Assembly: GCA_021775575.1 (NCBI GenBank)
Contig: JAJFHO010000011.1
Location: forward strand, 1-41,266
Direction: 5' to 3'
Length of the DNA stretch: 41,266 nt
Source of the DNA: Hyphomicrobiales bacterium
GTDB taxonomy: Bacteria; Pseudomonadota; Alphaproteobacteria; Rhizobiales; Methyloligellaceae
Each line of letters begins with the position of its first letter. Position 1 is the stretch's first letter. The translations under genes were made by a program, and so were the position numbers. The notes beneath the pieces are model-generated. The model was not told the origin of the DNA. It did no database searches and worked only from the letters and a program-made list of their open reading frames with translations. Positions 3,157 through 40,238 of the stretch are shown in pieces.

Positions 3157-3717
3157 ATGAGGCCTACTTTGCCGGCCATGATCACGCACAGGCCGTTATC
3201 CGGCAAAGCGCGGTTGGACGATGCTGGTGCGCGGGGTTTCGCCCGGCTGGCGCCGCCAATCCCGCTATTCGCGCTCCAGCCGCTGCTGGGGCACATCGTT
3301 ACGACGATCGCGGGGCGTCACCCGGAGCTGATCGCGCGGCTCGGTGACAATTGCCGGAAGCGCTTCCTGATCGATCCGCATAATTTGCCCTTTTTTCTGT
3401 TGCTTCAGCCGGACCCCGACAGGCCGCGGCTGAAAGCCTATGGCCGCGCCCGGGACATCGAGCATGATGTTCATATTTCCGGAACATTTCTGACGTTGCT
3501 CAGGATGATCGACGGCCAGAGCGACAGCGACGCCCTGTTTTTCAATCGCGACCTGACCATCACAGGCGATACCGAAGCGGTCGTCGCCTTGCGTAACGCG
3601 CTCGACAATATGGATGTCACGCTCGCCGACGATGTCGCGGCTTGCTTTGGCCCGCTGTCGCGACCGGTGCGTGCCGTTATTGATTTGACCTTCAAGTTTG
3701 CGAGCCCGAAACCATGA
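3157..3717 (+). CDS. ubiT: UbiT-like SCP2-domain protein, oxygen-independent ubiquinone biosynthesis
   Basis: A 186-residue protein with one SCP2 (sterol-carrier) domain over about residues 35-165. It has hydrophobic N-terminal stretches (PPIPLFALQPLLGHIV) and the late segment LTITGDTEAVVALRNALDN that recurs in UbiT. UbiT is a lipid-binding accessory factor thought to present ubiquinone intermediates. The call rests heavily on context: its end overlaps the ubiU start by four bases (ATGA) and ubiV follows, the usual ubiTUV order. Two starts are possible: ATG 3157 or ATG 3178 (MITHRPLSG); neither has a strong ribosome site and the N-terminus before about residue 20 is not conserved. The region lies directly after the broken ykgJ gene. 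Confidence 0.85.
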   Translation: MRPTLPAMITHRPLSGKARLDDAGARGFARLAPPIPLFALQPLLGHIVTTIAGRHPELIARLGDNCRKRFLIDPHNLPFFLLLQPDPDRPRLKAYGRARDIEHDVHISGTFLTLLRMIDGQSDSDALFFNRDLTITGDTEAVVALRNALDNMDVTLADDVAACFGPLSRPVRAVIDLTFKFASPKP

Positions 3718-4718
3718 CACAATTGTTCAAACCGGAGCTGGTATGTCCGGCCGGGACCCCCGCTGGTCTGCGCACCGCCGTGGATGCGGGCGCCGATGCC
3801 GTTTATTGCGGCTTTCAGGGCCCGACCAATGCGCGCAATTTCCCTGGCCTTAACTTCACCGTTGCCGAGATGGCCGGTGCCGTGTCCTACGCCCACGACC
3901 ATGGCGCCAAAGTCCTGGCGGCAATCAATTCATTTCCCACCGCCGGGCGCACCGAACTCTGGAAGGAAGCCATCGATGAGGCTGTGAGCATCGGCGTTGA
4001 CGCGGTGATCGTCGCCGATATCGGCATGACGCAATATTTGAGCAAAGCCCACCCCGGCCAGCGCATCCATCTGTCCGTGCAGGCAGGCGCCTCATCGCCA
4101 GAGGCGATCAACTTTTATTGCCGAAGATTCGATATCAAGCGCGTGGTGCTGCCGCGCATTCTGACCGTTGCGGAAATCAAGCAAGTGCATGACGAGATCG
4201 GTTGTGAAATCGAGGCATTCGTCTTCGGCAATATCGGAATGATGGCAGAAGGACGCTGCGCGCTCACCAACTATGTCACCGGTCAGTCGACCAATATGGA
4301 TGGCGTGTGTTCGCCGGCGAGTCATGTTCACTATGAAGAAGACGAAGACCGGAATTTGAAGACCAGGCTCGGTGAATTCGCCATTGACTGCATCGCCTGC
4401 GGAGAACATGCGGGCTATCCGACGATCTGCAAGGGCCGCTACAATGTCAGCCACAAACAAGAATATTACGCCTTCGAGGAGCCGGTCAGCCTGAACCTCA
4501 CCCGGTTGTTGCCTGATCTGATGCGGGCCGGGGTAACGGCCCTGAAAATCGAGGGCCGGCAACGCTCGCGGGCCTATGTCAAAGCCGTGGTCTCCGCATT
4601 TCGCCAAGCCGTCGATGCCTATTCAGAAGGCGGTGAACCCGATATCAGCAACCTTTTGGCACTGACCGAGGGCAGCCGGGAAACCCAAGGCGCATTCCGC
4701 TCAAAAACCTGGAGATAG
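3714..4718 (+). CDS. ubiU: UbiU, U32-peptidase-like iron-sulfur subunit of the anaerobic ubiquinone hydroxylase
   Basis: A 334-residue U32-family protein. Matches to UbiU are ELVCPAGTPAGLRTAVDAGA near the N-terminus, LNFTVAEM, INFYCRRFD, VVLPRILT, GRCALTNYVTGQSTNMDGVC, HAGYPTICKGRY and ALKIEGRQRSRAYV near the C-terminus. UbiU and UbiV form a complex that hydroxylates ubiquinone precursors without O2, each holding a [4Fe-4S] cluster. In E. coli UbiU the ligands are, as I recall, C169, C176, C193 and C232. Equivalents of the last three are C182, C199 and C239. The first is glycine here (G175 in FGNIGMMAEGRC; codon GGA). Two extra cysteines, C226 and C229, lie ten residues before C239 and might substitute. 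Starts inside the end of ubiT and ends two bases before ubiV. Confidence 0.93.
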   Translation: MTQLFKPELVCPAGTPAGLRTAVDAGADAVYCGFQGPTNARNFPGLNFTVAEMAGAVSYAHDHGAKVLAAINSFPTAGRTELWKEAIDEAVSIGVDAVIVADIGMTQYLSKAHPGQRIHLSVQAGASSPEAINFYCRRFDIKRVVLPRILTVAEIKQVHDEIGCEIEAFVFGNIGMMAEGRCALTNYVTGQSTNMDGVCSPASHVHYEEDEDRNLKTRLGEFAIDCIACGEHAGYPTICKGRYNVSHKQEYYAFEEPVSLNLTRLLPDLMRAGVTALKIEGRQRSRAYVKAVVSAFRQAVDAYSEGGEPDISNLLALTEGSRETQGAFRSKTWR

Positions 4719-4720
4719 CC

Positions 4721-5620
4721 ATGACCCCGCAACTCACGCTGGGACCGGTTCTGTACAACTGGGCGCCCGAACACTGGCGCGATTTTTATTTTCAGGTGGC
4801 CGATGAAGCGCCGGTGGACACCGTCTTCCTCGGCGAGGTGGTTTGCTCAAAACGTGCAGCCCTGTTTGATCCATATCTGGAGGAGGTCGTTGCACGCCTG
4901 GAAAATGCGGGGAAAAAGCTGGTGTTTTCCACGCTTGCCGAAGTGACCAGTACCATCGACCGCCGGCTTGTGGAGCGGGTGGCGGCATCGGACGAGTTCT
5001 TCATCGAGGCCAATGATGCATCCGCGCTTTCCTATCTCGATGGCCGCCCGCACGCTATTGGCCCTTATATGAATGTGTACAACGAAGACTCTCTGGATTT
5101 CTTTGCCGGCAACGGCGCACGCAGCATCTGCCTTCCGCCGGAAATGCCGGCAAGTGGTATTGCCGCTATGGGCAGACAAGCGGCCGAACTTGGCCTCGAC
5201 CTGGAAGTTCAGGTTTACGGGCGCATTCCGCTGGCGTTGTCGGCCAGGTGCTATCACGCGCGGGCCCACGACCGCACCAAGGACAGTTGCCAGTTTGTCT
5301 GTGACAAGGATCCCGACGGCATGGTGCTGAACACATTGGAGGGCAGGGCGTTTCTCGCCGTCAACGGCATCCAGACGCAGTCCTATACCTGTCTCAACCT
5401 TGCCAATGAACTGGATGAGCTTGGTGCATTCGGGATCAGCCGGTTTCGCGTCTCGCCGCAAAGTACCGGAACTGTGGCGGTCACCAAATCCTTCCACGCT
5501 CTCTTGAACAAGGAATTGAGCCCGGCGGAGGCAAGTGCAAAGTTGTGCGAAATTGGGCTCGATGTGCCATTCTCAAATGGCTTTTATCATCAGCAGTCCG
5601 GATTTGAATGGCACGCGTAG
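4721..5620 (+). CDS. ubiV: UbiV, U32-peptidase-like iron-sulfur partner of UbiU
   Basis: A 299-residue U32-family protein starting two bases after the ubiU stop, so the pair is translationally linked. It begins LTLGPVLYNWAPEHWRDFY and has FLGEVVCSKR (C42) and SARCYHARAHDRTKDSCQFVC (C177, C190, C194). The spacing C-x12-C-x3-C plus one N-terminal Cys matches the four [4Fe-4S] ligands reported for E. coli UbiV (C39, C180, C193, C197), so this cluster looks intact. The C-terminal part keeps NGIQTQSYTCLNLANEL and FRVSPQS, as in the family. Role: with UbiU, oxygen-independent ring hydroxylation of ubiquinone intermediates. The next gene downstream is convergent. Confidence 0.93.
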   Translation: MTPQLTLGPVLYNWAPEHWRDFYFQVADEAPVDTVFLGEVVCSKRAALFDPYLEEVVARLENAGKKLVFSTLAEVTSTIDRRLVERVAASDEFFIEANDASALSYLDGRPHAIGPYMNVYNEDSLDFFAGNGARSICLPPEMPASGIAAMGRQAAELGLDLEVQVYGRIPLALSARCYHARAHDRTKDSCQFVCDKDPDGMVLNTLEGRAFLAVNGIQTQSYTCLNLANELDELGAFGISRFRVSPQSTGTVAVTKSFHALLNKELSPAEASAKLCEIGLDVPFSNGFYHQQSGFEWHA

Positions 5621-6909: not shown

Positions 6910-8052
6910 TTAGCGGGATTGATTGGCGGTCGTGTCTGTTCCGTCATAGCCGAAGCGTTTGAAATAGGCCGCCCAGCGTTTGCGCACGAGTGTCCGTTTT
7001 TCTTCGGGCAATTCATAGACATTGGTTTGGTATTCGCGTGTCCCGGACAGATAGCTGTCGACGGCCTCCTCGGCACGCGAAAAATCACCAAGATCGAGCC
7101 GCGCGTAGATCGACTTCATGACGGCCTTGGGGTCGGCGACCAGCGCCTCATAGGTGATTTCGGTGAGCTGCTCGTCAGGAATCAGCTTCCGGTCCTCCTC
7201 ATAGCGCTTGAACAGAACGGAGAATGTATCCAGCACATAGTCTTCCAGCCAGGGCTCGTCATTCGGTGGATGCTCCAGTCCCTGCACCGAGGTCATGGTT
7301 TTCCAAAGGCGCATGGTGGAGGGAAATACGGTCATCGGATCACGGGTGATATGAATGAAGCGGGCGTCGGGGAACATTTCGAGCAGGGTCGCGACGCGTG
7401 CCGTGTTCTGTGGCGATTTGAGGATCAGTGGCTTGCGGCAGCGGTAGGAGACGCGCCGAAAAAACCAGAGAAAGCCTTCGCGCCAGCGCCGCTTGTCCTC
7501 GGCAGGCAAGTCCCGCAAATCGAGATGCGAGTGATCGATGGGACCGCGGCGCGGCAGCGCCCAGGCGACATAGATCGACGGCAGGCCGAAATTGCAGAGC
7601 GCGAATTCCTCTTCCTGCGGCCGGTCGGTGCCGACGGCGACATCGTCCATCGGGCGCTTCTCGGGCTGCACCAGTCCAAAGCCGAAGCGGGCCAGAGGGC
7701 CAGTCAGCAGAAAATGGTTCGGGAAGATGCATTCATAGGTTGTCGGGTAGCCGAATTCAGGGTCGCAAGCCAGAAGATCGTGCAAATAGGTAGTACCGGT
7801 ACGCCAGTGGCCGAGCACAAAAATCGGCGGATGCTCAATCTTGTAATCCGCTATTCGCCGGCCATAGACCGCTTCCGACAGCCGGTACAAGAGCGAATTG
7901 AGCGGCGTCAGAAGGCTGACGGTTATGATCTGCGGCAGGCAATTCCAAGTGAAGCGAAAATCGTTTTTCTTGAGCAGGTTATACCAGGCACCAAAGCGCA
8001 TCCCGTGCCAGAAATAAAGCACCATGCCCGCATATTTTTCCCGTCTTAACAT
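6910..8052 (-). CDS. Sulfotransferase family protein
   Basis: A 380-residue PAPS-dependent sulfotransferase-fold protein. The 5'-phosphosulfate loop is FVLGHWRTGTTYLHDLL (residues 78-94) and the 3'-phosphate site is FIHITRDPMTVFPS (residues 232-245), both in the expected order and spacing. The N-terminal 60 residues hold a hydrophobic stretch (LPQIITVSLLTPLNSLLY) that may touch the membrane. The acceptor cannot be read from the sequence; bacterial members of this subfamily often act on lipids or small hydrophobic molecules. No ribosome site is obvious before the ATG. It lies 68 bp downstream of the SDR–FAD oxidase gene on the same strand, so the two may form an operon. Confidence 0.8.
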   Translation of the reverse strand: MLRREKYAGMVLYFWHGMRFGAWYNLLKKNDFRFTWNCLPQIITVSLLTPLNSLLYRLSEAVYGRRIADYKIEHPPIFVLGHWRTGTTYLHDLLACDPEFGYPTTYECIFPNHFLLTGPLARFGFGLVQPEKRPMDDVAVGTDRPQEEEFALCNFGLPSIYVAWALPRRGPIDHSHLDLRDLPAEDKRRWREGFLWFFRRVSYRCRKPLILKSPQNTARVATLLEMFPDARFIHITRDPMTVFPSTMRLWKTMTSVQGLEHPPNDEPWLEDYVLDTFSVLFKRYEEDRKLIPDEQLTEITYEALVADPKAVMKSIYARLDLGDFSRAEEAVDSYLSGTREYQTNVYELPEEKRTLVRKRWAAYFKRFGYDGTDTTANQSR

Positions 8053-8120: not shown

Positions 8121-10400
8121 TCAGTCGTCGGCGGAAGCGGCGGCCTGGGCGTCCTTGCCCAGCTCCCCGGATGTCCCGCCGGCGCCCAGGAATTCGTCGA
8201 AATAACTGTTGAGCAACCGGTCATTCGGGTCGCGCGCGCGGCGCGCGGCCTCAAACTCATTCAGCCGTTTTCCAAACGCTTTTTGCACCTGACCGGCGTT
8301 CAGATGCTTGGTCTGGTTGAGCATCGGCATACCACCATGTTCACTGCAGAAATTGTTATACTCCTTCAAGAAGTCGTCCCATCCTTCCCCTCCTGTCGCA
8401 GCCGGGTCGATGCTTATCACGGTTCCATCATGGGTGTAGGACAGTAAAGCGTTGCGGTCCTGAACGATGCGGTATCCGACGGCGGGAAGGTCGCAGCGAT
8501 AGCCCGTGCGTTCGTCATAGTCATGGCAGAATTTAAAATAGCCTTCCAATATGTCAAAAAATTTCTTCTCGTTGAAAGACCACATGCTGAAGACATATTT
8601 CACCGGTCCGGGATTATCGGGGTAGCGAATAATCTGTGCGTCGGGCCGGGTATGCTCGCCGCGTATGAACCACGACATTCCTCTGCGCATGATGCGGTGA
8701 AAGGCGCCGATCAGAGCATTCTCGATGGCGACGCTGGGCGATATGCGTTTTATCGCCAATACAAGCAAGGGGCCCCATTTGCGCCAGAAGGCATTTCGCA
8801 GCGCCCAGCCAAACGCTCCGCCACGCGCTTCCACGTCCGGCACCTCGCGGCGAAGCTCCACGACAATTCTGTCCGCGAAGGGAAAAAAATACATCATGAG
8901 AGCGTAATTCTGCGCGACCAGATTTGGCACGGCATCGCGGAGTTCGGCGAGCGTATAGATGCGGTGCTCGACGAAAACGGCAGTCATCGGTTTAACGCGC
9001 AGCGTCACCTCGGCGACGATCCCGAGCAGCCCGTAGCTTGAACGCAAGAGCCGTATCTCCTCGGGATGTTCTTTTTCCGTGTAGCTGTGGACGCTTCCAT
9101 CGGGATGTACGACCTTCATGCCCGTCACATAGGAACTTATCTGCCCGTAGCGCGAACTCTCGATCAGCGAGCTGTCCTTGGTGGTGGCGCAGGCCATTGC
9201 TCCAAGCGTGACATTGCCGATCTCCGTATTGACATGGAATTGGAGACCGCGGCGCGCCAGCTCCTCCGCCACGTCGATATAGATCGCGCCGGCTTGCGCC
9301 GTCACGGTGTCCTCACCGATCTCCACTATTTTTGTCATCCCGGTCATATCGACCATCGTGCCTTTATCGTCCGCCGAACAGCGGGCCGGTGAGTGGAGGG
9401 TGCCGACCGCGCGAACAGGCGCGGGATATTGGTCAGTGTCCTTTACAACGCGAACGATATCGTCAAGCGTCTCTGGCCGGACGATTATTTCGGGCCGATA
9501 GGTCAGGCCGCCTTCCCAATTGGAAACTTCGCCCGATGCGGAGACAACCGCGTGGCTCTTGCGTTGACCTGAGGCCGGCCCCCGCAGTTTCAAAAGCCAA
9601 GCGATGAAGGGCACGAGCGCGAAATGCGGCGTGAGTTTCATTGCCAGCGCGGAGACCATGTTAAAGACCCCGGGGATGATCAGCCGGCGGCCGGCGAGGA
9701 ATTTGTCCGTGGCGTAACGCGCCACATCTACCGGGTCCTGCAAGCCGAGGAATTTGATGTAATAGGCGGTTTCGGCACCCATCCGGCTGTGGAATTCGGT
9801 TTTTACCGGCCCGCATGCGAGAACGCCAACTTTCACGCCGGTTCCCGATGTTTCATACGCCAGCGCCGCGCTGAGCGAATTCACATAGGCCTTGGAAGCG
9901 TAATAGGCGGCTTGGTATGGACCTGGCGTCATACCCGCCATGGACGACACGTTGAGTATGCCGCCGCGCCCCGCTTCGACCATTCCGGGAAGAAACCGGC
10001 TTGCCAGGTCAGTAAGGACGCGGATATTGAGGTCCACCATATTGAGCGTTTGTTCCCGCTCTATCTCGGCGAAATAGCCGGCGAGCCCGTAGCCGGCATT
10101 GTTGACCAGATATTCGACGAAAAGACCCTGGTCGCGTACAGCCGCCTCCACCGCTTCGCAGCCGTCCCCCGCGGTCAGGTCGGCTTCCAGCGTGTAAATA
10201 TCAACTCCGGTCTTTTCAGTGAGGGTCGCGGCCAGCGCGTCGAGCTCCTTTCGCGTCCTGGCAACCAGCATCAGCGAATGGCCCCGGCGTGCGAACTCGT
10301 CCGCAAACCCCAGTCCTATCCCCTTGGTTGCGCCGGTGATCAAAGTCACGGGTTTCCGGTCGCTCTTCCGGCTTTCCGGACCATCCTCCTTCTTGCTCAT
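8121..10400 (-). CDS. Fusion of a short-chain dehydrogenase and a GULO/ALO-type FAD-linked oxidase
   Basis: A 759-residue two-domain protein. Residues 16-250 are a classical SDR: TGATKGIG (22-29), VNNAG (99-103), serines at 152-153 and YYASK with Tyr166 and Lys170. Residues about 300-480 form a PCMH-type FAD-binding domain (RPETLDDIVRVV, AVGTLHSPARCS, then TEIGNVTLGAMACATT), followed by an aldonolactone-oxidase-like C-terminal half to about residue 745. The link region (250-295) contains a hydrophobic stretch, FALVPFIAWLLKL, that could be a membrane anchor. ATG at 10400 has a good ribosome site (GGAGAAAG). One polypeptide may therefore carry out two successive redox steps on one substrate. 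It is divergent from a flavin monooxygenase gene and shares an upstream region full of inverted repeats. Both domains are read with confidence; the substrate is unknown. Confidence 0.85.
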   Translation of the reverse strand: MSKKEDGPESRKSDRKPVTLITGATKGIGLGFADEFARRGHSLMLVARTRKELDALAATLTEKTGVDIYTLEADLTAGDGCEAVEAAVRDQGLFVEYLVNNAGYGLAGYFAEIEREQTLNMVDLNIRVLTDLASRFLPGMVEAGRGGILNVSSMAGMTPGPYQAAYYASKAYVNSLSAALAYETSGTGVKVGVLACGPVKTEFHSRMGAETAYYIKFLGLQDPVDVARYATDKFLAGRRLIIPGVFNMVSALAMKLTPHFALVPFIAWLLKLRGPASGQRKSHAVVSASGEVSNWEGGLTYRPEIIVRPETLDDIVRVVKDTDQYPAPVRAVGTLHSPARCSADDKGTMVDMTGMTKIVEIGEDTVTAQAGAIYIDVAEELARRGLQFHVNTEIGNVTLGAMACATTKDSSLIESSRYGQISSYVTGMKVVHPDGSVHSYTEKEHPEEIRLLRSSYGLLGIVAEVTLRVKPMTAVFVEHRIYTLAELRDAVPNLVAQNYALMMYFFPFADRIVVELRREVPDVEARGGAFGWALRNAFWRKWGPLLVLAIKRISPSVAIENALIGAFHRIMRRGMSWFIRGEHTRPDAQIIRYPDNPGPVKYVFSMWSFNEKKFFDILEGYFKFCHDYDERTGYRCDLPAVGYRIVQDRNALLSYTHDGTVISIDPAATGGEGWDDFLKEYNNFCSEHGGMPMLNQTKHLNAGQVQKAFGKRLNEFEAARRARDPNDRLLNSYFDEFLGAGGTSGELGKDAQAAASADD

Positions 10401-10434
10401 TCTTTCTCCATGCAGGAACCCGTAACCGGCAAAT

Positions 10435-10458
10435 AGTCACTGTGACACAATAGTGACT
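10435..10458. promoter_or_regulatory. Repeated GTCAC/GTGAC half-sites in the divergent promoter region
   Basis: AGTCAC-T-GTGAC is a perfect palindrome with a one-base centre, and a third half-site GTGACT follows ten bases after the centre (AGTCAC and GTGACT are also perfect inverted arms). It sits about 35 bp upstream of the SDR–FAD fusion gene, in the gap shared with the monooxygenase gene, and looks like an operator. Confidence 0.4.
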
Positions 10459-10468
10459 CCCCTCAACG

Positions 10469-10480
10469 CATACGAGTATG
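10469..10480. promoter_or_regulatory. CATAC-GA-GTATG palindrome
   Basis: A perfect inverted repeat with five-base arms and two-base centre lies 11 bp from the GTCAC cluster in the same divergent gap. It may be a second operator or part of a promoter. No regulator gene is adjacent. Confidence 0.3.
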
Positions 10481-10614
10481 AGATATTCTTTTGCGTTGGC
10501 AATTGCATATATAGAAGGGACCGGGGCGAGCGGTCGGAGTTGCTATCGTATTTGCCCGAGGCGTAAGAGGGCACCCTACATAGTGGGTTCCGCAAAGTAG
10601 GTAAAGTAGAGGTC

Positions 10615-12015
10615 ATGGAACAGTCGGCGGGTGAGGTGAAGTATTGCATTATCGGTGCTGGCGCATCGGGACTTGCGGTAGCAAAGAACTTCAGACAGCG
10701 TGGAATTCCATTCGATTGCATTGAGCGCGAAAGCGAAGTCGGCGGTCTCTGGAACGAAGCGACAGGCGCGGGCCGCGTTTACAAGTCGACCCATATGGTG
10801 TCCTCCAAGGAGTTCACCGCGTTCGACGATTATCCGATGCCCGACGACTATCCGCTCTACCCCAATCACAAGCAGGCCATGGCCTATCTGCATGACTATG
10901 CGGATCATTTTGGCATTCTCGACGCCGTTGAGCTTAATACGTCGGTTGAGTCGCTTGAGCGATGGGATGACGGCTGGAAGGTGCAGATTGCCGGAGAGCG
11001 CACGCCACGCAAATATGCCGGCGTGGTAATCGCTAACGGTCATCATGAGATTCCGCGGATGCCGGATATTCCCGGTCGTTTTACCGGCGAGTTTCTGCAC
11101 AGTGTCGCGTATCGGCATCCTTCGCAACTCGCTGGAAAACGGGTGCTGGTCGTGGGCGCGGGCAATTCCGGCGGCGACATCGCCGTCGATGCGGTCCATC
11201 ATGCGAAGTCGACCTATCACAGCATGCGCCGCGGCTATTATTTCGTCCCGAGATTCCTGCTCGGCATTCCGATCGACGACGTCATCGATTTCGTCGAAAA
11301 GTTCCGGTTGCCGCGCTGGTTGCGCCAGCGCATGTTTGGCCTCGGCTATCTCTTGGCCGTAGGTCCGAATTGGCGCTACGGACTGCCGACCCCCGAGCAT
11401 CGCATTCTCGACACCCATCCGACCGTCAATTCGGAATTGCCTGTAATGGTTGCCGAAGGCCGCCTGACAATCAAACCCGACATAACCGGGTTTTCAGGCT
11501 CGCGCGTTTCCTTTGCCGACGGCAGTGAGGTGGATGTGGATTTGGTGGTTGCCGCGACCGGCTTCATTCCGCAATTTCCGTTCTTCGACCAGTCGCAGTT
11601 CTTCGACGATGCGCGCCGGCCCAAACTGCAGCTGAATGTCTTCCATCCCGAGTGGGATGATCTGTTCGTCGTCGGCTTGATAAACGCCAATGGCAGCATG
11701 TGGCGGGTCGCCGACTACCAGGCGCAGCTGGTTTCCGGATTTATCCAGACTTGCGAGTCCGCGCCGCAGCGCGCGCGCGCCTTCCGCACCCGAATCGCCG
11801 CGGCCGACCGGCGCGAGCGGTCGAAACGGTTTCTCCAGACCGAAAGGCACAGGCTGGAAGTCGACTATCACGGCTATAGCCGTCTTCTGAAAAGACTGGC
11901 CCGCAAACTGGCCGCGCTGACGGTCCGGCAGGATGCCGCCGCCAAGCCGGCGATCAATGAAGACCTGAACGATGGAAATATGGAGACGGAAGCCAAGCGC
12001 ATGCGCGCGGCCTGA
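10615..12015 (+). CDS. Flavin-containing monooxygenase (FMO/Baeyer-Villiger type)
   Basis: A 466-residue class B flavoprotein monooxygenase. It has the FAD-binding loop IIGAGASGLAVAK (residues 12-24), the FMO identifying motif FTGEFLHSVAY (F156, G158, H162, Y166) and the NADPH loop VVGAGNSGGDIA (179-190), then VVAATGFIPQFPF near residue 320. Such enzymes insert one oxygen atom into a soft nucleophile or ketone using NADPH and O2; the substrate cannot be told. The length is usual for bacterial FMOs. The last 40 residues are charged and poorly conserved. It is divergent from the SDR–FAD fusion gene, and a strong hairpin follows its stop codon. Confidence 0.85.
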   Translation: MEQSAGEVKYCIIGAGASGLAVAKNFRQRGIPFDCIERESEVGGLWNEATGAGRVYKSTHMVSSKEFTAFDDYPMPDDYPLYPNHKQAMAYLHDYADHFGILDAVELNTSVESLERWDDGWKVQIAGERTPRKYAGVVIANGHHEIPRMPDIPGRFTGEFLHSVAYRHPSQLAGKRVLVVGAGNSGGDIAVDAVHHAKSTYHSMRRGYYFVPRFLLGIPIDDVIDFVEKFRLPRWLRQRMFGLGYLLAVGPNWRYGLPTPEHRILDTHPTVNSELPVMVAEGRLTIKPDITGFSGSRVSFADGSEVDVDLVVAATGFIPQFPFFDQSQFFDDARRPKLQLNVFHPEWDDLFVVGLINANGSMWRVADYQAQLVSGFIQTCESAPQRARAFRTRIAAADRRERSKRFLQTERHRLEVDYHGYSRLLKRLARKLAALTVRQDAAAKPAINEDLNDGNMETEAKRMRAA

Positions 12016-14875: not shown

Positions 14876-16495
14876 CTAGCCCTGATCGGCGAGGATCATG
14901 TCGGAGGCTTTCTCGGCGATCATGATTGCCGGCGCATTGGTGTTGCCTGAAACCAGCGTCGGCATGATCGAGGCATCCGCGACCCGGAGATTGGCAACCC
15001 CGTGCACGCGCAATCTCTCATCCACGACGGCTGCCGGGTCCGACCCCATCTTGCAGGTGCTGGTGGGGTGGTAGATGGTCTGTGCGATGTTGCGCGCCAT
15101 ATCCAGCAACTCGGCATCACTCTTCGCTTTGGCGCCTGGAACCTTTTCCTCGACAATGAAGCGGGACATCGCCTTCGTCTCGGTCAATTGGCGCGAAACA
15201 CGCATTCCCGCCACCGCAGTCTCCTGATCCAGCGTGGTCGAGAGATAGTTGGGGTGGATTTCGGGATAGACGTGCGGATCGGGTGAAACGATGTCGATAC
15301 GGCCCCGGCTTTCCGGCCGCAATTGGCAAACCGACATCGTAATCCCTGAGAAGGGGTGCATCTCTACACCCGGCTTGTCGGCGCTCAAAGGCTGGAAATG
15401 GAACTGAATGTCCGGGTTGTCCATTTCAGGACGTGTCTTGCAGAAAATGCAGACCTGGCTCGCCCCCATCGCCATGGCGCCACGGCGTGCTGCCACATAT
15501 TGGATGCCGATTAACATCCGGTGGAAGAAATTGTTGATTTCGTCGTTTAACGTCGGGACGTTGACCTCGTAAATCATGCGGATTTGGAGGTGATCCTGAA
15601 GGTTCCCGCCCACCCCCTGCAATTCGTGCCGCACGGGGATGTTCAGTCCCTGAAGCAGTTCGCCTGGACCGATGCCCGAAAGCTGGAGGACTTGCGGCGA
15701 TCCAATCGCACCAGCGGAGAGGATGACCTCGCCGCCGGGTTTCAGGGTTGCATGATGGGGGCGGCCCTTGACGGAGAAGGAGATGCCTTTCGCTTCGCGG
15801 GATGTGTCATCCCCGAACAGCAATCCTTCGACATGGGCATGGGTGATGATCTCTAGATTGTCGCGTTTGCGGGCCGGGCGGAGATACGCGACCGCAGAAG
15901 AACAGCGCAATCCGTTTCGGGCGGTCAGTTGAAAGTAACCGGCGCCTTCCTGAACCGCACCGTTAAAATCATCGTTTCTGGGGATGCCGATTTCCTCCGC
16001 GGCATCGATCAACCCTTTGCAAACATCCCGGTGAACCGGCATGTCTGATACCGAAAGCGGCCCATCGCCTCCGTGATACTCACTATCGCCCCGTTCCTGA
16101 TTTTCAGAGCGGATGAAATAGGGCAGGACATCATCGTAAGACCAGCCGGCATTCCCGAGCTGGCGCCAGAGATTATAGTCGTCATGCTGGCCGCGAATAT
16201 AGAGCAGCCCGTTGATTGAACTGGACCCGCCAAGCGTCTTGCCTCTGGGCCAGTCGATACTGCGCCCGTTCAATCCGGGATCGGGCTGGGTCTTGTAGGA
16301 CCAGTCGGTCTTCGGGTTGTGGAGTGTCTTGAAATAACCGACGGGTACATGAATCCAGGGATTGTTGTCCTTGCCTCCCGCCTCCAGCAGCAGAACCGTG
16401 TTCCGGCCGCCCGCGCTCAGCCTGTTTGCCAGGACGCATCCTGCCGATCCCGCGCCTGCGATGATGTAATCAAATTGCCCGACTGATTGGGTCAC
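14876..16495 (-). CDS. GMC-family FAD oxidoreductase (choline/alcohol dehydrogenase type)
   Basis: A 539-residue GMC oxidoreductase. Evidence: FAD loop FDYIIAGAGSAGCVLANRLS (8-27), LLLEAGG (35-41), GMC signature WPRGKTLGGSSSINGLLYIR, second signature GAIGSPQVLQLSGIGP, and the C-terminal catalytic pair in YHPTSTCKMG (His) and GNTNAPAIMIAEKASDMI (Asn). Enzymes of this type oxidise primary alcohols, from choline to polyethylene glycol, to aldehydes. The start is GTG at 16495-16493. It is divergent from the TRAP transporter genes and shares a palindrome-rich gap with them, which suggests co-regulation and a role in oxidising the transported compound. Its exact substrate is unknown, so betA is not assigned. 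Confidence 0.88.
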   Translation of the reverse strand: MTQSVGQFDYIIAGAGSAGCVLANRLSAGGRNTVLLLEAGGKDNNPWIHVPVGYFKTLHNPKTDWSYKTQPDPGLNGRSIDWPRGKTLGGSSSINGLLYIRGQHDDYNLWRQLGNAGWSYDDVLPYFIRSENQERGDSEYHGGDGPLSVSDMPVHRDVCKGLIDAAEEIGIPRNDDFNGAVQEGAGYFQLTARNGLRCSSAVAYLRPARKRDNLEIITHAHVEGLLFGDDTSREAKGISFSVKGRPHHATLKPGGEVILSAGAIGSPQVLQLSGIGPGELLQGLNIPVRHELQGVGGNLQDHLQIRMIYEVNVPTLNDEINNFFHRMLIGIQYVAARRGAMAMGASQVCIFCKTRPEMDNPDIQFHFQPLSADKPGVEMHPFSGITMSVCQLRPESRGRIDIVSPDPHVYPEIHPNYLSTTLDQETAVAGMRVSRQLTETKAMSRFIVEEKVPGAKAKSDAELLDMARNIAQTIYHPTSTCKMGSDPAAVVDERLRVHGVANLRVADASIMPTLVSGNTNAPAIMIAEKASDMILADQG

Positions 16496-33810: not shown

Positions 33811-34319
33811 ATAGCTGGTGAGGCGCCGCATGCCGAATTCGTCTCGTAACGCGTGACCGCCCCGCCCTCATAGCCGCGCTGATAGGCGAGCGAGATCGCC
33901 CGCGGCGCATTTTTCCAAGTTTCTATATCTTGACCGCAGGCTATCTCGAAACTGTCGAAGCCCACGCGCCGCATGAAGGCCGCTTGATCCGGCAATACGT
34001 TCCCCGTGGCTCTGAGTTCTCCCGAGTAGCCCAGCTTAGTGCGCAGCTGGCGGGCCTGCGAATAGGCGCGACCGTCGGTAAATGCGGGAAATTCAAGAGT
34101 CACCAGCGCAAGGCAGGAGAGGAGGGACTCAATCTCTTCCACATCGGCCGTATTGGCAAGCTGGACGCCGGTCAGGCCGCGCCGACCGGCGAGTTGCGTG
34201 CCTTCGTGCAGCAGCCTTTCGAGCGGGAGGATCAGATCACCATCGGCGGGCAACGGCGCATCGTCTTCATGGCGCACCCAGCTATCTGCAATGACATCGC
34301 CATTTCTAATGAGTGGCAT
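33807..34319 (-). CDS. DUF934 protein of the sulfite-reduction operon
   Basis: A 170-residue protein starting [20 protein letters not shown], with [80 protein letters not shown] and GFDSFEI. This is the DUF934 family, found next to sulfite reductase genes in alpha- and other proteobacteria; its biochemical role is unknown. ATG 34319 overlaps the end of cysI by 14 bp. The neighbour cysH, often present in such operons, is not found here. Confidence 0.88.
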
Positions 34320-35961
34320 AGATGGCCTCCTTGAACGGTTCCGGGCCGATCCGGCGATAGGCATCGAGAAACGTCTCGCCGTCATCGCGCAGCCCGATAT
34401 AGGTGTCGATAATTGTCTCCACGGTGTCGGTGATTTCTTCGCCCGAAAACCCAGGACCGATAATCTCGCCGATCGATGCATTCTCGTCGCCCGATCCGCC
34501 AAGCGTGACCTGGTAAAATTCCTCGCCGGCTTTCTCAAGGCCGAGGATGCCGATATGGCCGGCATGGTGATGGCCACAGGCGTTGATGCAGCCCGATATC
34601 TTGATCTTGAGACCGCCGATCTCATTCTGGCGGGCGTCGTCGCCGAGCCGTGTGGAGATCTCCTGGGCAATCGGAATCGAGCGCGCAGTGGCCAGCCCGC
34701 AATAATCGAGGCCCGGGCAGGAAATGATATCGGTCGCCTTGCCGATATTGGCGCTGGCCAGAGCGTGTTCCATCAACTGTTGCCAAACCGCATGGATGTC
34801 TTTCTTGCGGACGTTTGGCAGAACCAGATTCTGCTCATGGGTGACGCGTATCTCGTCGAGCGAGTATTTTTCAGCCAGATCGGCGACGGCACGCATCTGC
34901 TCCGCGGTTGCGTCGCCGGGGACGCCGCCGACAGGCTTGAGCGAAATATTGACGATCGCGTAGCCCGGCACGCGATGGCGCTCGACGCTTGCGCTCGCCC
35001 ATGCCGCGAATGCGGCGTCTTCGGCAATAGCCTTCGCGTGGACGGGATCGTCGTCGGGAAGGTCCTGATACTCGGGAGCCGCAAAATAGGCCGAGATCCG
35101 CGCCAGTTCCTGCTCCGGCGGGACGACCTGCGGCGCGTCGATCCGGGCGAACTCCTCTTCGACCTGACGGGTGAACTCATCCGCACCCAGTTCGCGCACG
35201 AGAATCTTGATCCGCGCCTTGTATTTGTTGTCGCGCCGGCCATGCAGATTATAGACGCGCATGATCGCCTCAAGATATGCGAGCAGATCCTCGCCAGGGA
35301 GCCAGTCGCGCACGGGTGCCGCGATCAAGGGAGTGCGCCCCATACCGCCGCCGGCCAGAATTTCGAACCCGGTCTCGCCGGCGTCGTTCTTTTTGATACG
35401 CAAGCCAATATCGTGGAACGCGATCGCCGCCCGGTCGGCGGCGGCTCCGGTGACGGCAATCTTGAATTTGCGCGGCAGGAAGGAAAATTCAGGATGCAGG
35501 CTCGACCATTGCCGAATGAGTTCGGCATAGGGGCGGGGGTCCGCCACCTCATCGGCGGCAACGCCGGCCCAATGGTCGGCGGTGACGTTTCGGATGCAGT
35601 TGCCGCTGGTCTGGATCGCATGCATCTCGACATCCGCCAGGTCATCAAGGATGTCCGGTACGTCAGACAGTTTGGGCCAGTTATACTGGATATTCTGGCG
35701 CGTCGTGAAATGGCCGTAGCCCTTGTCGTATTTCTCGGCGATCGCCGCAAGCTGGCGCATCTGCGCTGAATTCAGCGTGCCGTAGGGTATGGCGACGCGC
35801 AGCATATAGGCGTGAAGCTGCAGATAGAGGCCGTTCATCAGCCGCAGCGGGCGGAATTCCTCTTCGCTCAGTTCACCTTCTATCCGCCGCTCGACCTGAT
35901 TGCGAAACTGGCTGACGCGCTGGCGAACGAAACGGGCGTCGAACTCGTCATATCTGTACAT
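34306..35961 (-). CDS. cysI: Nitrite/sulfite reductase hemoprotein (CysI type)
   Basis: A 551-residue siroheme/[4Fe-4S] reductase for assimilatory sulfite reduction to sulfide (six electrons). The ferredoxin-like half-domains (GYGHFTTRQNIQYNWPKLSD, then TSGNCIRNVTADHWAG) and the cluster cysteines C415 and C421 (ISCPGLDYCGLATARS) and C458 and C462 (ISGCINACGHHHAGHIG) are intact. The Arg/Lys set for siroheme and sulfite (RQN; RNVT; ATARS) is present. No flavoprotein partner CysJ is seen nearby, so electrons may come from ferredoxin. It follows the DUF2849 gene by 19 bp. Nitrite as substrate cannot be excluded, but the DUF2849/DUF934 context speaks for sulfite. Confidence 0.9.
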   Translation of the reverse strand: MYRYDEFDARFVRQRVSQFRNQVERRIEGELSEEEFRPLRLMNGLYLQLHAYMLRVAIPYGTLNSAQMRQLAAIAEKYDKGYGHFTTRQNIQYNWPKLSDVPDILDDLADVEMHAIQTSGNCIRNVTADHWAGVAADEVADPRPYAELIRQWSSLHPEFSFLPRKFKIAVTGAAADRAAIAFHDIGLRIKKNDAGETGFEILAGGGMGRTPLIAAPVRDWLPGEDLLAYLEAIMRVYNLHGRRDNKYKARIKILVRELGADEFTRQVEEEFARIDAPQVVPPEQELARISAYFAAPEYQDLPDDDPVHAKAIAEDAAFAAWASASVERHRVPGYAIVNISLKPVGGVPGDATAEQMRAVADLAEKYSLDEIRVTHEQNLVLPNVRKKDIHAVWQQLMEHALASANIGKATDIISCPGLDYCGLATARSIPIAQEISTRLGDDARQNEIGGLKIKISGCINACGHHHAGHIGILGLEKAGEEFYQVTLGGSGDENASIGEIIGPGFSGEEITDTVETIIDTYIGLRDDGETFLDAYRRIGPEPFKEAIYATH

Positions 35962-35980
35962 GGATGATGCCTTTCGGCCG

Positions 35981-36289
35981 TTATCCGTGGAAAATCAGGG
36001 AATTGCCGGCCGTCGGGCCCTTCATACGCATACGCTCGCGGTGCTTGACCGGCACGAAGCCATGTCCGTTGCACGTCTCTACCTCGATGAGGTAGGGATC
36101 GACGACAATGTTGGCCTTTGCCGCCGCGACCGCGTCTTGTTCGAGCGTTGCGATCGCGGCATCATTCTCCACGACGCGCGCGCCGCACAGATTGCGGGTC
36201 CATTCTCCCTTGCCGTCCAGGAACACGACGAGACCGTCACGCAGCCGGTTGGCCGTGGCAATACGCGGTCCGTTGATCTTCCTGGCCAT
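35981..36289 (-). CDS. DUF2849 protein of the sulfite-reduction operon
   Basis: A 102-residue protein: MARKINGPRIATANRLRDGL, VVFLDGKGEWTRNL, NDAAIATLEQDAVAAAKANI, VVDPYLIEVETCNGHGFVPV and KHRERMRMKGPTAG. This matches DUF2849, a small alphaproteobacterial family encoded directly before the sulfite reductase gene. Function unknown; a role in siroheme enzyme assembly is only inference. First gene of the transcript here. Confidence 0.87.
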   Translation of the reverse strand: MARKINGPRIATANRLRDGLVVFLDGKGEWTRNLCGARVVENDAAIATLEQDAVAAAKANIVVDPYLIEVETCNGHGFVPVKHRERMRMKGPTAGNSLIFHG

Positions 36290-36560
36290 TGCTCTGTCCT
36301 CTCGCGTCCGGGCTTGAATGCCAGCGGCCCGACGACCGTTTTCTTATGCCTAGCGGGTCATCACGTTATATAGAATAATTTTTCTCGTGCGCTGCTACAA
36401 ATCATCAATTTAGGAAAATCATTGCAGAATAGGGGAAAAAACCGAAAAATATACTTGATGACGGTGGAGTGACGGCATTTGGGCATCGGTCCGGAAGAGA
36501 CGATTGGAAATGCCGCCTTTTTTTCGCAAATCGCACGCTGCCAGGTTTTTTGGTCCGCCC
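36290..36560. other. AT-rich gap with promoter of the cys operon
   Basis: The 271-bp gap between the exporter adaptor gene (leftward end) and the DUF2849 gene start is AT-rich next to DUF2849. It holds the near-palindrome AGAATAATTTTTCT (36372-36385, 12 of 14 symmetric positions), 83-96 bp upstream of the DUF2849 start, a candidate regulator site for the sulfur operon. I see no gene here. Confidence 0.35.
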
Positions 36561-37787
36561 CTAGGGAGACGCGTTTGCGTCGCGCCGCTCGACCGCCACC
36601 TTGTCGCTGACCTTGTCGCTGGGATGCAAAACAACCATGTCGCCTTCAGTCAGACCGGACAAGAGTTCGGCCATTTCCGTGTTCCGCTGACCGATCTCGA
36701 CCTTGGTCAACATGGCAACTCCTTCATCGACCCGGAACACGGTCCAGTCCTTCCCGCGCCTGAAGAGTGCGCTTAAGGGCACAGTAAGCGAGCCCTGCGA
36801 ACTCCACACTGTAATCCTCACGAAAACCCTGAAATCGTGACCCAACTCGGTCCATTTTTTCTTGTCATCGGTTAAATCCAGGATCGTGTTGACCCGCTGT
36901 TCCTCGATACCCAGCGCCGAAACCTTGGTGAAGCCGGCCGGGTCGACCCGCAGCACGGTCGCCTTCAGAACGCCGATGCCTCCCCAGCCTTCGATCTGCG
37001 CCTCCGCGCCGGCTTTTACCTTCACCGCGTCCGTTGACAGCAGATCGACGACGATCTCCAGATCATGCGGGTCGCCGATCTCCAGCAGTGGAGCGCCAGA
37101 GCGGACAATCTGTTCGCTTTCATGGTGGATTTTGAGCACCCGCCCACTGACCGGCGCGCGCACCTCCACGCAACAGGAGGAACCCGGGTCGACAGCATTC
37201 TGCTGTTCGGGTCCGATGAGCCGCGCCTTGGCGCTCTCCAGCTCGCGCTTGCGCAGCTCCAGATTGGCTTCGGCCTGGGCCAGTCCGGCTTCGCGGACCT
37301 GGACCTCCAGCGCCGCCTTTTCCAGCGTGCGCTGCGATATGGTGCCGCGGCCAGCCAGAGACTGGGCCCGCTTGAGGTCGCTGCGGGCAAATACCAGCTC
37401 TGATCTGGCGCGACGGATTTCCGATTCGGTCAGAACGATGGTGGCGGCGGCCGCGGCCACCGCCGCTTCCAGTTCGCGGCGTGTGCGGATGTCGAGGAAA
37501 GAGGGGTCCTCCGGCTGGATGACCGCGACCAGCGTCTTGTCTTTGACGGCCGCGTCGCCGACCTCACGAGGCGACCGTCTGACTTTGCCGCCGATCGGCG
37601 CGGAGACAACGTAGATTTCGCGGATCCGGGTCTCGCCTTCTTCATCGACGGTAACTTTCAGCGGGTTGCGTGAGATGACAGCCGTATCGACAAGGATCGG
37701 CTTTGGCGCCAGCGCATAGTAGAAGCCGGCGGCAATTGCGAGCAGCAGGCCGAGCAGAAGAACGCGCTTGATCCATTTTCCGTTCAT
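36561..37787 (-). CDS. HlyD-family periplasmic adaptor of an ABC exporter
   Basis: A 408-residue membrane fusion protein. One N-terminal transmembrane helix (residues 8-25) anchors it in the inner membrane. A lipoyl half (KVTVDEEGETRIREIYVVSA, PIGGKVRRSPREVGDAAVKD) precedes a coiled-coil hairpin (RRELEAAVAAAAATIVLTES through EANLELRKRELESAKARL, about residues 103-193) and the second lipoyl half with VRAPVSGRVLKIHHESEQIV, then a beta-barrel. It bridges the FtsX-type permease to the outer envelope. Third gene of the exporter operon, three bases after the permease stop. No outer-membrane channel gene is present in the window. Confidence 0.88.
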   Translation of the reverse strand: MNGKWIKRVLLLGLLLAIAAGFYYALAPKPILVDTAVISRNPLKVTVDEEGETRIREIYVVSAPIGGKVRRSPREVGDAAVKDKTLVAVIQPEDPSFLDIRTRRELEAAVAAAAATIVLTESEIRRARSELVFARSDLKRAQSLAGRGTISQRTLEKAALEVQVREAGLAQAEANLELRKRELESAKARLIGPEQQNAVDPGSSCCVEVRAPVSGRVLKIHHESEQIVRSGAPLLEIGDPHDLEIVVDLLSTDAVKVKAGAEAQIEGWGGIGVLKATVLRVDPAGFTKVSALGIEEQRVNTILDLTDDKKKWTELGHDFRVFVRITVWSSQGSLTVPLSALFRRGKDWTVFRVDEGVAMLTKVEIGQRNTEMAELLSGLTEGDMVVLHPSDKVSDKVAVERRDANASP

Positions 37788-37790
37788 TGC

Positions 37791-40238
37791 CTATTCCCGT
37801 GTTTTGAGGGCCCGGATCATATTGAGTCTGTCGATCCTCCTGCGCACGATTGCCGCTGATGCGGCCGCAGCACCGAGCACAACGAAGCTGGCGATCGCAT
37901 AGGTATCGCTATTGATCATGAAGGGCACGCGGTAAAGATCGCTTTCAAAGCCCTGGATTGTTGCCCAGCCGAATGAATAGCCAAATCCCCACGACAGGGG
38001 GATTGCGGTCAGGACCATGATTGCCAGTTCGAGCAGCAGGACATGCGAGACCTCGCCCTTGGTAAAGCCCAGCACGCGCAGGCTGGCGAACTCGCGGGCG
38101 CGTTCCGACAGCTGAATGCGGGCGCTGTTATATATGACGCCGAAGGCAATAATCAGGCTCAATCCGACATAGACCGTTGTCATAATTTGGATATTCTGGC
38201 CGATGGTCTCTCTGAATTTCTCCAGCGCCGCGCCCTGCAGGGCGATTGCCGCGACCGCTGGCAATTTCTTGATCGCATTGAACAAGGCCGCCGTTTCGTT
38301 CTGGTCGAATGAAAAATAGACGCCGCTGACAACGGGAGATTCATCCATCATTTCGTTCAGGGCATCGAGGTCCATATAGACGAGCAGTCCCATATAGGAC
38401 TGAAAGATCTCAGTTACAGGCAATCGCCTGAGGCCACGCCTGCTGTCCGTTATGACAGTGCCGGTCTCGCCATCCGTCCGGACTTTCGAGACTTGTGTCT
38501 CCAGCGTCCGCGCCTGTCCCTTTTTTCCTTCCAGGATTTCGACCTCGATGACGTCTCCGCGGCGCGCCTGCAACAGATAGGCGACGCGCTCGGACAGGAC
38601 GAGGCCTGTCTCGGGCATTGTGATCGGTTCGAGATTGAGGTCGAGGACACGGCTCAGATCAGTGCCGGGGGGCTTGCCCAATATGGCCAGCTTTCGGTGG
38701 AGATGACCTTTGCGCAACCGAACCGCGACGCTGCGATAGGGCTCGGAAACCGTGACGCCGGGCAGGCGCCTGACTTCCTGCAATATTGTCATCGGCCGCT
38801 CGTCGGTGAAATTCAATGTTGCGTCCTGCCGGTCGGCGCGGAAAAACATGATCTCGACCAAATGCTCGAGGGAATCCATCATGAAAAGCGCCGTCGTCAG
38901 CAGCGCGCCGCTCATGGCGATGCCGATAATCGTCAGACCCGTTCTCACCGGCCAGCGAAACATATGCCGCAGCGCCATCATCGTCAGTTGGGAAAAGGCG
39001 CCAAGCGCGATCAGGCGCTCGATACCAAACAGGGCATATTGCGTCGGCGCGGGGGGCGCCATGGCAACGGCCGGTGGCAGCGTCAGCGCGGCGTAGACAC
39101 CGCGCATCCCGCCGGCGAGCGCAGTGACCGTCAGGATGCCGCCGGCGATTGCGTAGATATCGGGACTGCGCAGAAAAATCAGGAAGGGGAAATGGAAGAA
39201 GTCGGCATAAAGGACCGTCAGGCCGTGCCCGAGCCAGGTGCCCGCGCCCGCGCCGATGGCGATGCCGATGGCGGCGATGGCCAGAACGAGCTTGGTGTAA
39301 TGGGCGGCAATGGCCAGACGCCCGTAACCGATTGCCTTCAGCAGGCCGATTTGTTCGCGCTCCAATGCGATCAGCCGGGTCAGCGTCATGTTGATCAGGA
39401 AGGCCGAGACCAGCAGAAAGATAGGCGGAACCACCTTGGCCATGGCCTTCAGCTGTTTCAGTTCGGCATCGATGAAAGCGTTGGACTGATGGTCCTTGCG
39501 CCCATAGGCTCCGGTGCTGCCATAGCGGTCCAGCACATCGTCCAATTGCTTGACGACCTCCGCTTCGGACGTGCCCCTGAGAAGTTTGAGCGTGACCGCG
39601 TTGAACGCGCCTTCCAGATCGAATATGGCGGCCAGTGCCTTTTCCGACATCCACATGACGGCAAAGCGTCTGTCATCGGGAATCAGGTCGCCGGGCCCCA
39701 GCGCGTAGATGAACTCCGGCGAGAGCGCGATACCGACAATTTTCAGCGTGCGCTTGTAGCCGTTCAATATCGCCTTGAAGGTCGAGCCGAGCGCAAATCC
39801 GTGCGCCTTGGCGAAAGCCTCGTTGACGGTCACCTCATCGGGGCGGCCGGGCTGCGGGAGGCGGCCTGAGCGAATATAGAGGCGGTTGAGCCGGTTTTCC
39901 CGATGGTCTGGCAGCGAAATGGCCATGCCCGTGGCCGGCTGCACCATACCGTCGATGTCGAGCAGGGCGAATTCCAATATCCGGGCCTCGGCCGCGGCGA
40001 CGCCCGGAATCTCCAGAATGCGCTGTTCGACAACCTTGGGAGCGCGCTTGAGCGTGGTGAAGACATCGGCAAAACGGTAGCGCTCATAATAGGCGGCGCG
40101 GGTTTCCTCGAGCGACCTGTAGGCTCCCACCGCCAGGATCAGGGTGGCGGCGCCTGCGGCCATGACAAGAGCGATGGCCAGGGCTTGCGCCCAAAGCCGC
40201 CCTATATCGCGCAGCAGTTTTTTGTCGAGCGCGTTCAT
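37791..40238 (-). CDS. FtsX-type ABC transporter permease
   Basis: An 815-residue inner-membrane protein. It starts with a transmembrane helix (IGRLWAQALAIALVMAAGAA) and a large periplasmic domain, then an FtsX core (VPPIFLLVSAFLINMTLTRL, EREQIGLLKAIGYGRLAIA). A second half with its own periplasmic domain ends in a second FtsX core (LSLIIAFGVIYNSARIQLSE, RAREFASLRVLGFTKGEVSH, VLLLELAIMVLTAIPLSWG) and a final helix. The duplicated layout and length fit permeases that work with HlyD adaptors and LolD-like ATPases for lipid or peptide export. It is followed by the adaptor gene three bases on and preceded by the ATPase. Confidence 0.88.
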   Translation of the reverse strand: MNALDKKLLRDIGRLWAQALAIALVMAAGAATLILAVGAYRSLEETRAAYYERYRFADVFTTLKRAPKVVEQRILEIPGVAAAEARILEFALLDIDGMVQPATGMAISLPDHRENRLNRLYIRSGRLPQPGRPDEVTVNEAFAKAHGFALGSTFKAILNGYKRTLKIVGIALSPEFIYALGPGDLIPDDRRFAVMWMSEKALAAIFDLEGAFNAVTLKLLRGTSEAEVVKQLDDVLDRYGSTGAYGRKDHQSNAFIDAELKQLKAMAKVVPPIFLLVSAFLINMTLTRLIALEREQIGLLKAIGYGRLAIAAHYTKLVLAIAAIGIAIGAGAGTWLGHGLTVLYADFFHFPFLIFLRSPDIYAIAGGILTVTALAGGMRGVYAALTLPPAVAMAPPAPTQYALFGIERLIALGAFSQLTMMALRHMFRWPVRTGLTIIGIAMSGALLTTALFMMDSLEHLVEIMFFRADRQDATLNFTDERPMTILQEVRRLPGVTVSEPYRSVAVRLRKGHLHRKLAILGKPPGTDLSRVLDLNLEPITMPETGLVLSERVAYLLQARRGDVIEVEILEGKKGQARTLETQVSKVRTDGETGTVITDSRRGLRRLPVTEIFQSYMGLLVYMDLDALNEMMDESPVVSGVYFSFDQNETAALFNAIKKLPAVAAIALQGAALEKFRETIGQNIQIMTTVYVGLSLIIAFGVIYNSARIQLSERAREFASLRVLGFTKGEVSHVLLLELAIMVLTAIPLSWGFGYSFGWATIQGFESDLYRVPFMINSDTYAIASFVVLGAAAASAAIVRRRIDRLNMIRALKTRE

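Follow-up and report, generated by a model that had tools for sequence, protein, structure and literature searches.

A single gene in the 41,266-nucleotide stretch of Hyphomicrobiales DNA analysed here (hereafter the window) encodes a protein in which two complete redox enzymes are joined: a classical short-chain dehydrogenase (SDR; residues 1 to about 275) followed by a FAD protein of the VAO type (about residues 290–750). The fusion is confirmed as real; it is probably not recent, and selection has probably maintained it. The reading favoured here, to which a probability of roughly 0.35 is assigned, is that both halves act in turn on the same hydroxyl or keto position of one substrate, with net inversion or editing as the outcome, much as in the DprE1/DprE2 pair. 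Table 1 gives the positions of the gene, its parts and its immediate neighbours.

Table 1. Features of the fusion gene and flanking genes (window coordinates; residues are those of the fusion protein)
Feature	Coordinates	Strand	Basis or remark
SDR-FAD fusion gene	8121..10400	-	759 aa, one ORF
SDR core, residues 18-207	9780..10349	-	Pfam adh_short and motif positions
YxxxK catalytic motif, Tyr166-Lys170	9891..9905	-	Motif position
SDR C-terminal hydrophobic tail, residues 246-275	9576..9665	-	Alignment with free SDRs
Short junction, residues 276-290	9531..9575	-	Aligned free SDRs and free FAD proteins
PCMH-type FAD-binding domain (FAD_binding_4), residues 303-438	9087..9494	-	Pfam
His336 of GTLHS	9393..9395	-	Flavinylation histidine position; no variation among aligned family members
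ALO-type cap (substrate) domain, residues 465-736	8193..9008	-	Pfam
LNQT, residues 694-697	8310..8321	-	Columns of HWGK in annotated lactone oxidases
Sulfotransferase (Sulfotransfer_3)	6910..8052	-	Pfam; 68 bp from the fusion stop to its start
Divergent promoter region of the fusion and monooxygenase genes	10401..10614	.	Intergenic
Flavin-containing monooxygenase (FMO-like), divergent neighbour	10615..12015	+	Pfam

The reading frame begins with ATG and contains no internal stop, and its three Pfam domains, adh_short (E 7e-41), FAD_binding_4 (E 5e-23) and ALO (E 1.4e-8), all score above the curated cut-offs. The original prediction of an SDR and a FAD oxidase in a single protein is thus borne out by one intact frame carrying the domains of both halves, and the motifs that it listed (TGATKGIG, Tyr166, Lys170 and GTLHS) are all present, with exact numbering of the two catalytic residues. 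The junction falls where, judged from the aligned free proteins, an SDR would naturally end and a FAD protein begin, with roughly 4–14 codons between these two points. It is located deep within the 41-kb contig, far from the contig ends, and GC3 stays between 0.63 and 0.75 across all ten blocks of the gene. The source genome, the sole one of its genus in the comparison, is a 4.06-Mb draft (281 contigs, 4.45% contamination). A structure model of the full fusion reached a mean pLDDT of 52.5, too poor to place the two active sites relative to each other.

The N-terminal half carries the set of motifs that characterizes classical SDRs: TGxxxGxG (TGATKGIG at residue 22), NNAG at residue 100, and the Ser-Tyr-Lys residues Ser153, Tyr166 and Lys170, the last two within YxxxK. 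In SDRs, an arginine after the second strand is the rule for NADPH preference. The arginine found at this place suggests that the SDR half is of the NADPH type, and this half is probably an NADPH-dependent ketoreductase. Its best solved relatives are the classical SDRs 4bmv and 6zdz (126 and 114 bits, respectively). The top NCBIfam model is that of mycolate reductase (NF040690), but the score of 157.2 bits is below the cut-off of 380 and the window SDR, moreover, is fused to a flavoprotein. We take these three relatives to be SDRs that accept bulky alcohol or lipid substrates. A hydrophobic stretch (about residues 246–270), which had been read as a linker that may attach the protein to the membrane, turned out to be the SDR's own C-terminal tail, as it aligns with the C-terminal tail in all nine free-standing SDR homologues used. 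Membrane attachment itself is still plausible, although through a segment of the SDR: because of this hydrophobic tail, the SDR half probably sits on the membrane.

The C-terminal half displays the domain and the fold of VAO/PCMH proteins. FAD_binding_4 (PF01565) matches all 18 aligned family members, and the ALO cap (PF04030) is found in the window protein, where the match is weak (35–37 bits), and in 16 of the 18 aligned members. According to PMC11505616, a histidine at the GxxHS site carries FAD covalently in GULO-type enzymes, and one such enzyme lost flavin binding and function when the His or the Trp of its HWxK motif was mutated. The GxxHS histidine, within GTLHS at residue 333 in the window protein, is kept in 18/18 members checked for which the N-terminus is visible. 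The HWxK motif of the aldonolactone oxidases, by contrast, is present in none of the 19 FAD-family members checked (29 are known, window included); the same columns hold (L/F)NQ(T/S) in all 19, and HWGK in the four annotated plasmid-borne lactone oxidases used as a control. The NCBIfam models for lactone oxidases and GALDH are missed as well: TIGR01678, TIGR01676 and TIGR01679 gave 94.4, 62.2 and 104.4 bits for cut-offs of 396.8, 458.25 and 292.25, respectively.

The best solved relatives of the FAD half by sequence are an ancestral GALDH and alditol oxidase. A model of this half alone (mean pLDDT 65.8, pTM 0.68), which served for fold matching only, matched, along almost its whole length and with near-tied scores, GALDH (Z 35.7), DprE1 (Z 34.2) and alditol oxidase (Z 33.8). 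GULO, ALO, GALDH and AldO therefore share with the window protein the FAD_binding_4 and ALO domains, a flavinylation-type histidine and the best fold matches, but they differ from it in the HWxK columns and in the NCBIfam cut-offs. Since HWxK is replaced and every one of these cut-offs is missed, the FAD half is classified by its sequence as a VAO-fold subfamily of its own, probably with covalently bound FAD. The designation as a GULO-type oxidase thus holds for the fold and the flavin-attachment site and fails for the HWxK signature, and a label such as GULO-like or D-arabinono-1,4-lactone oxidase would mislead. The NQT signature that replaces HWxK is tied to no known reaction in this analysis.

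Besides the window gene, 28 distinct FAD-family genes were collected, 19 in the window's family and nine elsewhere (G117, G316, G863, G1134, G1136, G1137, two from Acidobacteriota and one from a plasmid); locus L039 is on the same contig as G1136 and L040 on the same as G025, and each was counted once. The fusion was seen in one genome only: none of the 28 genes is fused at any of the 26 visible 5' ends (those of G005 and G024 lie off their contigs), a scan of genome contigs yielded four relatives, none of them fused, and no plasmid record among 4613 matches covers 80% of the fusion. Nor was an architecture joining an SDR to a VAO/ALO-type FAD protein found in the open-licence PMC literature, judged in part by titles and the starts of abstracts. 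The Hyphomicrobium-type genome G117 had appeared as a second fusion on account of an 812-codon open frame, but was rejected: the locus holds a 493-aa free FAD gene with the frame open upstream. The FAD subfamily itself is rare. In overlapping sets of genomes, it was found at E 1e-60 (E 1e-50 in one search) in 16/397 genomes of the order (E 1e-60; window's genome included), 1/385 of a class draw (the window's own), 3/398 of the phylum (window's included) and 1/399 of the order of G863 (G863 itself).

The history of the two halves is best seen from the SDR. Its closest relatives, 45–55% identical, are located in a TerB-SDR-GATase gene row of related bacteria (TerB and GATase identified by Pfam), and have the same C-terminal tail as the window SDR, but are free-standing. 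The order TerB, SDR, GATase is found at seven loci (L065–L071), and L072 has the SDR and GATase with no TerB called; these eight loci were chosen for holding such an SDR and are no proof that every TerB operon has one. Locus L079, on contig C254 of the window genome, has TerB and GATase adjacent, with about 120 bp between them and no SDR, and the next two genes are placed as in L065. No other SDR of this kind was detected in that genome at E <= 1e-30. The same gap is seen in a second genus: in G005, TerB and GATase lie together (L080), the SDR is likewise absent, and it is found on another contig (L047) as a separate gene about 50 bp downstream of the FAD gene. In two genera, thus, the TerB row has no SDR, and the FAD gene has it as a neighbour or fusion partner. 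The FAD gene of G005 is the only one of the 28 other family members that this SDR adjoins. Five SDR homologues in Hyphomicrobium-type genomes (38–43% identical) are beside neither TerB nor GATase.

The original prediction would have been contradicted by evidence that one strain alone had lost a stop codon while its close relatives carry the halves as two genes. Relatives with two genes were indeed found. In G005, however, the FAD gene precedes the SDR, the reverse of the arrangement in the window fusion, and therefore no single lost stop yields the fusion. A recent loss of a stop codon is unlikely. Either order might have arisen from the other through tandem duplication and subsequent loss.

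Further traces come from the free FAD proteins of Hyphomicrobium type. The N-termini of three of these (L046, L059 and L039) match the tail of the window SDR with scores of 63, 50 and 49, which 0/2000 shuffles attained in each case, and they rank 1–3 of 793 ORF N-termini from the collected loci, many of which are not genes. When compared with the tails of five of the nine free SDRs, the three gave mixed results: L046 gave 4, 9, 24, 38 and 125 of 2000 shuffles, L039 gave 0, 13, 26, 42 and 209, and L059 gave 13, 97, 466, 467 and 547. The N-termini of three other FAD proteins, used as controls, gave 729–1382 of 2000 against the window tail, but one control, L064, reached 30/2000 against one free SDR tail, so that little weight attaches to any single match of that strength. 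The fourth Hyphomicrobium-type protein, L058, which is the earliest branching, shows no SDR tail (522/2000 against the window tail), and inspection by eye of the 240 bases upstream of the four genes, in three frames, revealed no further recognisable SDR sequence.

In the FAD tree, for which 19 of the 29 members were used, the window protein and the four Hyphomicrobium-type proteins are joined at 97/96, followed by G005 at 95/93. When the tree is restricted to the C-terminal part, the former group has 88/91 and the placement of G005 is left open. In the SDR tree, the window SDR and its G005 counterpart do not group together; the branch of the window SDR measures 1.0 for a median of 0.74, and is not flagged as long by the tree tool. 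Because the SDR tree leaves the relation between window and G005 unsettled, the case for an ancestral fusion rests on the tails and on the FAD tree. On these grounds, the tail-like N-terminal segment is read as a remnant of an ancestral SDR-FAD fusion, and the simplest account would be that this fusion lost its SDR domain and kept the tail in the Hyphomicrobium-type lineage.

The surroundings of the FAD gene were also compared. Of the 17 same-family relatives with a visible 5' flank, 16 (all but L052) have an FMO homologue in divergent orientation next to the free FAD gene; eight of the 17 were read at about 20 kb and the others with about 1.5 kb per side. This pairing may be simple synteny, because the same loci share other, housekeeping genes. 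In the same-family loci of about 20 kb (L048–L052 and L062–L064), SDRs of other types flank the FAD-FMO pair (c5 in 8/8, c8 in 7/8). No homologue of the sulfotransferase was detected at E <= 1e-5 in the other loci compared, many of which are short. The divergent promoter region that separates the fusion from the FMO gene contains an inverted repeat, AGTCACT...AGTGACT (10435–10441 and 10452–10458), which may be operator-like.

Other oxidoreductase genes occur near members of the family. At three distant loci (L061, L053 and L045), the FAD gene lies beside that of an animal-type haem peroxidase (PF03098), divergently at two and with the peroxidase just upstream on the same strand at one, possibly as an oxylipin-type gene pair. 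A GMC oxidoreductase gene is present in the window at 14876–16495, about 4 kb from the fusion, and a GMC protein adjoins the FAD gene in a locus from Bryobacterales (Acidobacteriota), L042, a shared occurrence that is possibly due to chance; a 1128-aa protein encoded there (L042:11367–14753) has a GMC oxidoreductase as its N-terminal half and no Pfam match (E <= 0.001) beyond residue 541. Farther away in the window, a nitrite/sulfite reductase-like gene is followed by HlyD-type and FtsX-type export genes (34306–40238). Since the window also encodes a UbiU-UbiV pair (3714–5620, above the NCBIfam cut-offs), which serves anaerobic ubiquinone synthesis, an oxygen-free mode of life is also probable for this bacterium.

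Among the closest known systems is the decaprenylphosphoryl-ribose 2'-epimerase pair formed by DprE1 and DprE2. DprE2 is an SDR, and DprE1 binds FAD without a covalent link. The FAD half of the window protein has the fold of DprE1 (Z 34.2 with an rmsd of 4.1 over 396 residues for the whole-length match, tied with alditol oxidase), a likeness that is common to the wider VAO group. It scores 48.7 bits with the DprE1 model NF053785, for a cut-off of 500, and keeps the GxxHS histidine. DprE1 and DprE2 are separate chains, whereas the window protein is a single one. According to PMC9993113, the flavoprotein oxidises and the separate NAD(P)H-dependent partner reduces one lipid hydroxyl, and the two proteins co-purify and work in sequence, with DprE2 raising the activity of DprE1. 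The architecture of the window protein is compatible with such an oxidation followed by reduction at the same hydroxyl, and by analogy the protein most likely works like this pair without belonging to those families. The flavin half, probably with covalently bound FAD, would oxidise C-OH to C=O, which the SDR half would then reduce with NADPH, leading to net inversion or editing of the alcohol; the direction of these steps is that which we infer for the pair of halves. Membrane contact would be made through the SDR tail, and the shared substrate would probably be a lipid. A hopanoid polyol was considered as this substrate and dropped, as the FAD subfamily is rare in the order. In a more specific and doubtful form of the proposal, the protein would be a single-chain redox epimerase, with a flavoprotein subfamily of NQT signature, acting on a lipid that is subsequently sulfated.

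The absence of the SDR from its usual operon, and its place fused to, or beside, a FAD protein that is normally free of SDR, suggest that the partnership between the two enzymes has been selected. The idea that the halves are functionally linked thereby gains evolutionary support, to which the three apparent tail remnants add. What counts against a shared substrate is that the FAD enzyme usually does without this SDR (27 of the 28 other genes). One possible alternative, held with less confidence than action on the same position, extends the original prediction and has the halves acting on one molecule at different positions or in consecutive steps of a pathway: the SDR would set an alcohol, for instance, the flavin half would oxidise or desaturate a neighbouring carbon, the FMO would add oxygen and the sulfotransferase would cap the alcohol. 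The divergent FMO gene of most relatives and the sulfotransferase gene immediately downstream of the fusion fit such a sequence, and the haem peroxidase or GMC oxidoreductase genes beside the FAD gene (three loci and one locus, respectively) may point to oxygenated substrates; it is weakened by the synteny that may explain the FMO pairing and by the finding of the sulfotransferase at the window locus only. Of comparable, tentative standing is the view that nothing is channelled, and that the fusion, by way of the SDR and its tail, serves to anchor the FAD enzyme at the membrane or to have it co-expressed, with a separate substrate for each activity. It would account for the fact that the piece seemingly kept in the Hyphomicrobium-type proteins is the hydrophobic tail, with no SDR catalytic domain, and for free FAD proteins that manage without an SDR, but not readily for the separate SDR gene that adjoins the FAD gene in G005, or for the intact SDR motifs of the fusion.

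These intact motifs, together with the even GC3 and 759 codons without a stop, also make it improbable that one half is decaying and that the fusion is a passing state toward the loss of the SDR, an outcome that the Hyphomicrobium-type genomes, whose FAD proteins have no SDR domain, would illustrate and with which the somewhat longer, although unflagged, branch of the window SDR would agree. Least probable, by a small margin, is an error of sequencing or assembly, or a stop lost in one strain. The fusion is indeed known from one draft genome, with the contig number and contamination given above and as the only representative of its genus compared; the position of the junction far from the contig ends, the absence of the SDR from its usual operon in that genome, the reversed order in G005, the tail-like segments of the Hyphomicrobium-type proteins and the few codons between the natural ends all speak against it. 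A fusion by chance or artefact was rejected on the junction, the missing operon SDR and these tails.

Fused redox partners are known as a kind, as are both folds. Fusions point to enzymes that work together, and the present one singles out two orphan enzyme families that could be studied as a pair. If the two halves invert a hydroxyl, the window protein would serve as a model, in one natural chain, for a mechanism that elsewhere takes two proteins and is a drug target.
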